This document shows positions 32,943 to 34,522 of a DNA stretch of 64,000 nucleotides, piece after piece. The translations under genes and the position numbers were made by a program. This DNA comes from an uncultured Kushneria sp. GTDB lineage: Bacteria > Pseudomonadota > Gammaproteobacteria > Pseudomonadales > Halomonadaceae. The stretch is from contig NZ_CANMFC010000003.1 of NCBI RefSeq assembly GCF_947497025.1, positions 124,001 to 188,000 of the forward strand. The letters run 5' to 3'. Every line of letters starts with the position of its first letter. The stretch's first letter is position 1. The notes under the pieces are model-generated. The model was not told the DNA's origin. It saw nothing but the letters and a program-made list of their open reading frames with translations, and did not search any database.

Positions 32943-32971
32943 TTGTACAAGATGTATAAAAATATTGTACA
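32943..32971. promoter_or_regulatory. TTGTACA direct repeats upstream of the pseudo-methyltransferase gene
   Basis: TTGTACA at 32943-32949 and again at 32965-32971, 22 bp apart (about two helical turns), flanking an AT-rich TATAAAAATA. It lies 60-90 bp before the 33034 start. The layout suggests a regulator site around a -10 element, but no -35 box stands out. Confidence 0.3.
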
Positions 32972-33033: not shown

Positions 33034-33744
33034 ATGGATACCCGATGCTCAGGGCTTTCAGCCCCAGCGGCCGAAGCGATACCCGCTTCTTTGACATCAT
33101 CCGGACTCGATGGAACATTAGCGCCTCGGACTGCATGTGAGCGCTCGAACCATCATGGGATATCGCTGCTGGACATGGCGCCCCATCATCGCGTACTGGA
33201 CATGTATGGCTCCAGTCGACAGCGCATGCACCTGATTGGCCGAAAGCTCGATGAGCGAGGTGAACTGGTCGCCAATATCACGGGCGCACTGTCGCTTGAA
33301 AGCGCTGAGCTTTGCCATGTTCCGGACAATGTGATCATGACCCGCCTTGATGATGAGCGTCTATCACTGGAAGAGGTGGGCACCTTTGATCGTGTCCTGC
33401 TGGATATCCCGGTCCTGATGGGGCGACACCTGTCTTCACGTCAGCGTTCAGAGCGTCTTGTGTCATTGCTGTTGCGTGCCATCGCACTATGTCGCGAGGG
33501 TGGGCGCGTCGTGTATGTAACGCACGGTCATCTGAAACAGAACAATGAGATGGTGGTCGACCAGGTGATCAATGATGCCCACAAGGGTATTGCCCTGAAC
33601 AACATTGCATTCGCCGGCAGCTCGGGCAGTACTTTCTGTGGCGGCCAGCAGCTGGATGCAAGGGTTGCCAGAACCCTCTATGTGGACAGTGAAACGGGCA
33701 GCGATAATCGTTTCCTGGCCGTACTTGAGTGCAGTCGCGCCTGA
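33034..33744 (+). CDS. Degenerate RsmB/RsmF-like (NSUN) methyltransferase homologue, probably inactive
   Basis: A 236-residue protein whose order of segments follows the SAM-dependent m5C RNA methyltransferases. HRVLDMYGSSRQRMHLIGRK sits where VLDxAAAPGxKT is expected, RGELVANITGALSLESAELC follows as the second motif, TFDRVLLDIPVLMG replaces the DAPCSG motif, and GGRVVYVTHGHLKQNNEMVV replaces GGxLVYSTCSxxxxEN. Both catalytic cysteines and the glycine-rich SAM loop are missing. The N-terminal RNA-binding part of RsmF and its C-terminal PUA-like region are also absent. I infer a pseudo-enzyme, perhaps an rRNA- or protein-binding factor. The ATG at 33034 is preceded by CAGG. Short gap to the next gene. 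Confidence 0.65.
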   Translation: MDTRCSGLSAPAAEAIPASLTSSGLDGTLAPRTACERSNHHGISLLDMAPHHRVLDMYGSSRQRMHLIGRKLDERGELVANITGALSLESAELCHVPDNVIMTRLDDERLSLEEVGTFDRVLLDIPVLMGRHLSSRQRSERLVSLLLRAIALCREGGRVVYVTHGHLKQNNEMVVDQVINDAHKGIALNNIAFAGSSGSTFCGGQQLDARVARTLYVDSETGSDNRFLAVLECSRA

Positions 33745-33829: not shown

Positions 33830-34522
33830 ATGTCTCACCTGATGTTTCGTTTGCATCGTTTTCGTCACACCTTTATGGCATGGGCGGCGCATCAGCTTGT
33901 GGCCTGGCGCGTCTCGCCGGCGGGGCTTGCCCTTTCAGCCATCGCGCTTGGCATTGCCACAATGCCTCTGCTGTATGCACGCCAGCCTTTGTTAGCTGCA
34001 CTGTTCGTTGTTTTATATCGTCTGCTGAGCATGTTGTCGGGCTGGGTATCCATGGCACTCGGGCACTTTGATGCCAGGCAGCGCTACCTGCGCCCCTTCA
34101 TGGAAATCGTTTTGATTTTGTCGGTCATGGGTGGGCTTTCACTTTACCAGCCTGAGCGACTTTTCCAGCCTGCGCTTGTGCTGGTCATTGTCATACTCGT
34201 ATTTGATCTTGAAAGGCGACTGGCAGCGCTGCTTCAGGAAGCGCAAATGATCGTGGTCAGGGTCGGCGGAGTCGAGCGTCTGGTCGATGTTGCTACAGGA
34301 AGTGTCGGACGAACGCTGCTCTTGATTGCTGCCTGCTACTGGCCGCAGACCTTTTTCTGGAGCGGATTCGGATTTGCAGGTAGCTGTCTGGTGGTGCTGA
34401 TCTGGCGGCTAATTTTCAACTATCGAGCACTTGGCAGGCATTCAAATGCCGCTACATTCGCCTCTGCTGACGTGCCAAACGCCACGGTCTCGCAAGGTAC
34501 GAAACGGCAAGAGCAGGCATAA
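33830..34522 (+). CDS. Membrane protein resembling a CDP-alcohol phosphatidyltransferase without its active site
   Basis: A 230-residue protein with about five hydrophobic segments. WRVSPAGLALSAIALGIAT resembles the N-terminal region of CDP-alcohol phosphatidyltransferases (ITPNxLT...), and the following LYRLLSMLSGWVSMALGHFD aligns with the catalytic DGxDGxxAR region, but every expected Asp/Gly/Arg catalytic residue is changed. The later FMEIVLILSVMGGL takes the place of the GxxxDxxxD half. The tail after residue 205 is polar and low in complexity. It therefore looks like a structural relic or pseudo-enzyme. The gene follows the degenerate methyltransferase by 85 bp and ends at a terminator. 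The family assignment is by eye. Confidence 0.6.
   Translation: MSHLMFRLHRFRHTFMAWAAHQLVAWRVSPAGLALSAIALGIATMPLLYARQPLLAALFVVLYRLLSMLSGWVSMALGHFDARQRYLRPFMEIVLILSVMGGLSLYQPERLFQPALVLVIVILVFDLERRLAALLQEAQMIVVRVGGVERLVDVATGSVGRTLLLIAACYWPQTFFWSGFGFAGSCLVVLIWRLIFNYRALGRHSNAATFASADVPNATVSQGTKRQEQA

Follow-up and report, generated by a model that had tools for sequence, protein, structure and literature searches.

A maintained methyltransferase core of RsmF-like descent, probably non-catalytic, in the genus Kushneria

Enzymes that methylate cytosine in RNA depend on a small set of conserved motifs, and the locus described here raises the question of what an intact reading frame of this family encodes when these motifs are replaced, where it came from and what it may be kept for. 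The window, i.e. the whole stretch of 64,000 nucleotides from an uncultured Kushneria sp. that was analysed, contains an open reading frame at 33034-33744 (+) with an ATG start, no internal stop and a product of 236 aa. A reading made from the letters alone (sequence-only reading) had taken the product for a dead relative of the RsmB/RsmF methyltransferases that is maintained rather than decaying, and had proposed an RNA- or ribosome-associated role. Based on PF01189 matches, an AlphaFold2 model and a motif alignment, we annotate 33034-33744 (+) as a pseudo-methyltransferase gene, coding for a putative RsmF-derived Rossmann core without catalytic residues.

Family membership and predicted fold

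The proposed homology to the RsmB/RsmF (NSUN) family held up. Against Pfam Methyltr_RsmB-F (PF01189), the window protein scored 28.2 bits, a narrow pass of the curated cut-off of 27, and the same family was matched by 8/8 orthologues from Kushneria; the remaining Pfam matches were weak and scattered. A profile of the eight orthologues compared with PDB chains by sequence matched Nop2 (8fkt, E 1.1e-9), Thermus RsmF (3m6u, 5e-6) and E. coli RsmF (2frx, 0.003). The structure prediction suggested for this locus gave the same picture: an AlphaFold2 model with pLDDT 81.6 and pTM 0.78 found Nop2, RsmF and aTrm4 as best PDB folds (E 2.9e-10, TM 0.69 in a range of 0.6-0.7), with NSUN proteins also among the nearest folds, and since the underlying alignment of 24 rows included active relatives, this model leans towards the RsmF/Nop2-type fold. 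The model built from the eight orthologues only was poor (pLDDT 53.5), and its fold matches were to the same families (Nop2/RsmF). By HMM cut-off and predicted class I Rossmann fold, the protein is thus assigned to the RsmB/RsmF (NSUN) superfamily. It missed the NCBIfam equivalog cut-offs for RsmF, reaching 24.3 bits where 690 are required and 13.8 where 588 are, and by these scores it would not count as an RsmF orthologue.

Nop2 was the best PDB match both by sequence and by fold. Nop2/NSUN1 and NSUN4 keep the catalytic cysteines and the SAM site. Thermus RsmF (3m6u/3m6w) and E. coli RsmF/YebU (2frx), which gave significant profile and fold matches, are active multidomain enzymes, whereas the window protein appears to be a bare dead core. 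Neither PF17125 (RsmF N-terminal) nor PF13636 (PUA) was matched in a Pfam search with the window protein and the eight orthologues. Codons 1-43 (33034-33162, +) seem to stand where RsmF has its N-terminal RNA-binding domain; this stretch evolves fast (dN/dS 0.13-0.33), has no PF17125 match and is mostly of low predicted confidence (pLDDT <50 across residues 9-37).

Catalytic and structural motifs

The eight Kushneria orthologues were aligned with 16 active relatives. As had been claimed, both catalytic cysteines and the SAM loop are gone, replaced in 8/8; in the window protein, CAAPGGKT of the active enzymes has become YGSSRQRM, DAPC has become DIPV, and STC has become VTH. The degenerate SAM-binding motif I (codons 56-65; 33199-33228, +) reads D-MYGSSRQRM, for D-[ML]CAAPGGKT in active enzymes; P61 and G62 are lost, K64 is changed to Arg and D56 is retained, each in all eight orthologues. 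At the acid position of motif II (codon 82; 33277-33279, +) every orthologue has Ile, while active relatives have Asp (13/16) or otherwise Glu. In the degenerate motif IV (codons 124-132; 33403-33429, +; DIPVLMGRH for DAPCSxEG), the catalytic cysteine at position 127 is lost in 8/8, and the subsequent loop, on the substrate side, is shorter in the Kushneria proteins than in active relatives. The cysteine of the degenerate motif VI (codons 163-166; 33520-33531, +; THGH for TCT/TCS), at position 164, is His in seven orthologues and Ser in genome G006. Taken together, none of the eight orthologues has either catalytic cysteine, the SAM loop or the ribose-binding acid, and all have lost part of the active-site loop. 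With both cysteines, the AAPGGK loop and the motif II acid replaced throughout, the protein would not qualify as a catalytic RNA m5C methyltransferase, and methyl transfer by it is predicted to be very unlikely because neither a SAM site nor the catalytic cysteines are present. An enzyme still active through migrated catalytic residues would agree with the kept fold and motif I aspartate, and with C153 and further cysteines elsewhere in the protein; the loss of the glycine-rich SAM loop, the motif II acid and both cysteines in 8/8, with no cysteine at either catalytic position, renders it extremely improbable.

Residues that hold the fold are retained (D56, G76, A80-N81, F118-D119, D124, G156-G157, Y161, T163, N171-E172). 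The least changed dead copy is that of G006, in which a PEENE-like segment and Trp positions are kept and which is 34% identical to the active protein L105. The C-terminal strand is conserved, as had been observed; as a novelty it was rejected, since in the alignment the strand and the GGQQLDPR...RFLAVFEC segment are inherited from the active family. The C-terminal motif of the window protein, GGQQLDARV (codons 203-211; 33640-33666, +), corresponds to GQxLDPxL of that family.

Locus, ancestry and selection

Orthologues were found at the same locus in eight of the ten Kushneria genomes examined, always with an intact frame; the named species among the relatives were K. phyllosphaerae, K. pakistanensis, K. 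indalinina and K. avicenniae. In all eight loci, an NlpC/P60 lipoprotein gene precedes this gene, and an FKBP gene follows directly or one gene later. In the two genomes without the pseudo-methyltransferase gene (G002 and G008), an MFS transporter gene is located at the same place (L060 4308-5507 and L061 4108-5325), between the nlpC gene and a CDP-alcohol phosphatidyltransferase gene.

Upstream of the gene, the seven closest species share a conserved element, TTGTACAA-N14-TTGTAC (32943-32970, +), with TTATAC as second arm in two. Its gapped pattern had two matches in the genome and none in the reversed control, and it probably represents a promoter or operator. Conservation of this element and a terminator-like hairpin closing the preceding gene together suggest that the pseudo-methyltransferase gene has its own promoter. 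A search for a regulon of the dyad gave no functional lead, with only the two genome matches, and a structured 5' leader was dropped as folding was no better than that of shuffles (z 0.56).

The downstream neighbour (33830-34522, +) encodes a 230-aa membrane protein, a degenerate relative of CDP-alcohol phosphatidyltransferases in which the catalytic Asp residues are lost. This product has no Pfam match; it is the syntenic counterpart of the intact CDP-alcohol phosphatidyltransferase in G002 and G008 (PF01066, 41 and 33 bits). The catalytic residues D..DG..AR...G...D...D are lost in 7/7 species carrying the counterpart, frames being intact and dN/dS about 0.2. The protein is a possible operon partner of the pseudo-methyltransferase. 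Two adjacent dead enzymes are an unusual arrangement, but an obligate pair across all species is excluded because G006 has only the pseudo-methyltransferase gene and not its dead neighbour.

In the sample of relatives, no genome outside Kushneria gave a match. A profile search of 250 Halomonadaceae yielded three weak matches outside the genus (16-21 bits), all of them long frames with ordinary catalytic motifs, and a recognisable copy, live or dead, was not found in the other Halomonadaceae genomes searched. A pattern-based scan found no viral relatives. Some Halomonadaceae of genus g5 (L089 of G036 and L091 of G093) encode a further RsmB/F-like protein (409-453 aa) which belongs to a different subgroup, with the motifs DACAGTGGK and DVPC.

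The active proteins closest to the profile were RsmF-like enzymes of 475-560 aa from other Gammaproteobacteria (72-93 bits), whose own best-scoring models were TIGR00446 and those of RsmF/RsmB, at scores below the equivalog cut-offs. These long enzymes (e.g. G906 L105, G683 L104 and G537 L092; TIGR00446/PRK11933-like) share the Rossmann core, the motif order and the C-terminal GQxLDPxL...GGFFxAVLEK segment with the Kushneria protein, but they have CAAPGGKT, DAPC, STC/ATC, an RsmF-type N-terminus and extra C-terminal sequence, all of which it lacks. In a tree, the eight dead proteins grouped together (100/100) as a clade with a long stem. The only RsmB row included was placed among other rows; with this one RsmB row itself very long and the root arbitrary, the placement is supported rather than proven. 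A search with L105 gave one match in nearly all Halomonadaceae genomes, two in a few, and two in the eight Kushneria genomes, there RsmB and the dead protein. Kushneria RsmB belongs to the same superfamily (PF01189), is encoded elsewhere in the genome and has intact motifs in 10/10 genomes, but is not the nearest relative. Descent from the cell's own RsmB was rejected on the basis of identity search and tree; thereby the ancestry given in the sequence-only reading, correct at the level of the RsmB/F family, is refined to the long RsmF-like enzymes. As such enzymes were not encountered in the rest of the Halomonadaceae, we infer that one Kushneria lineage received a foreign RsmF-like gene, inserted downstream of nlpC, and that catalysis was lost afterwards. 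Base composition was uninformative as to a recent foreign origin, the GC content of the gene (56.4%, window 59.1%) being close to that of its neighbours.

Pairwise dN/dS values according to NG86 were 0.10-0.19 for the whole gene and 0.06-0.13 for the core, below those of codons 1-43, and changes were mostly at third codon positions; these are simple estimates, with dS ranging from about 0.5 to saturation, near which the wider pairs lie. When neutral evolution was simulated with as many base changes as observed (1000 runs per pair), the frame stayed free of stops in 73/1000 (G000-G005) down to 1/1000 runs (G000-G007), and the observed amino-acid changes numbered 36, 67 and 89 versus simulated minima of 53, 100 and 122. 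A rival reading, in which the acquired gene has no present function and decays slowly, its constraint being residual or relaxed, would fit the faster evolution of this gene relative to the flanking FKBP and putP genes (dN/dS 0.006-0.10), the fast-evolving N-terminal stretch and the likewise degenerate gene at 33830-34522. We consider such decay improbable, as 8/8 frames are intact over this range of dS, amino-acid changes are far below the neutral expectation, the core dN/dS is low and the upstream element TTGTACAA-N14-TTGTAC is conserved. The gene thus appears to be maintained by selection and not decaying, as the earlier reading had it, and motif loss combined with maintenance would make its product a methyltransferase pseudoenzyme. 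A weak function is possible, since the protein evolves faster than those of the flanking housekeeping genes. The outcomes named beforehand as speaking against a dead but maintained family member, i.e. no family match, cysteines present in orthologues or frameshifts in most relatives, did not occur. Very probably, the protein is a maintained pseudoenzyme from an RsmF-like m5C methyltransferase core without the RNA-binding domains, the SAM site, both cysteines and part of the active-site loop.

Possible role of the dead core

A pseudo-methyltransferase might still recognise rRNA or tRNA and act in ribosome assembly, or compete with an active enzyme. Its ancestry lies among rRNA/tRNA m5C enzymes, and assembly roles independent of methylation exist for rRNA methyltransferases, e.g. 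NSUN4 (PMC3916286). The proposed RNA- or ribosome-associated role nevertheless found no support and appears unlikely: the N-terminal RNA-binding and PUA domains are absent, the loop after motif IV on the substrate side is shortened, none of the immediate neighbour genes examined is RNA-related, and the positive charge of most active cores is lost. Net core charge ranges from -6 to +1 across seven species, with +3 in G006, i.e. neutral or acidic in 7/8 orthologues, while active cores mostly have +2 to +9. As the loss of the RNA-binding domains and the mostly non-basic core make RNA binding doubtful, a non-catalytic role in protein interaction is tentatively favoured by analogy, although we hold it at less than an even chance.

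In such a role, the dead Rossmann core might dock on another protein, as NSUN4 does on MTERF4 or a prozyme on its live partner. NSUN4, without a PUA domain, acts with MTERF4 independently of methylation (PMC3916286), and a PRMT without catalytic activity of its own activates the enzyme it partners (PMC10211241). The Kushneria protein resembles NSUN4 in having no PUA domain. With T. brucei PRMT1 PRO (PMC10211241) it shares the features of a dead Rossmann methyltransferase kept by selection, albeit in another methyltransferase family.

The former SAM and catalytic cleft might also have been re-used, with Y58, R64, R131, H132, H164 and H166 binding a metal or another ligand, possibly for a new chemistry. 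All eight orthologues have R64 and R131, and H132, H164 and H166 (33427-33429, 33523-33525 and 33529-33531, all +), a putative metal or ligand site at the former catalytic loops, are invariant in 7/7 of the main group. In this fold, the loops carrying R64, R131, H132, H164 and H166 are found where strands beta1, beta4 and beta5 have their C-terminal ends, which would suit such a site. The core is, however, generally well conserved among the seven species, so that invariance is weak evidence, and G006 has Cys132 and Ser164; a re-used site is therefore rated as quite unlikely. Still less probable, and put forward as speculation, is that both dead enzymes, the re-used cleft and the membrane protein, constitute a new two-component, membrane-linked unit for sensing or scaffolding in one Kushneria lineage.

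The explanation as a whole, a maintained pseudoenzyme acting as a non-catalytic binding module, we regard as slightly short of an even bet. A limited search of open-access literature did not bring up any bacterial RsmB/F protein described as both stand-alone and dead. The narrow distribution in part of one genus limits the reach of the finding. Within this single genus, an rRNA-methyltransferase core would have been recruited to a new non-catalytic job, and the less changed dead copy of G006 together with the gene-free relatives G002 and G008 could allow the loss of catalysis and the gain of a role to be traced, which in these culturable bacteria is testable by deletion.
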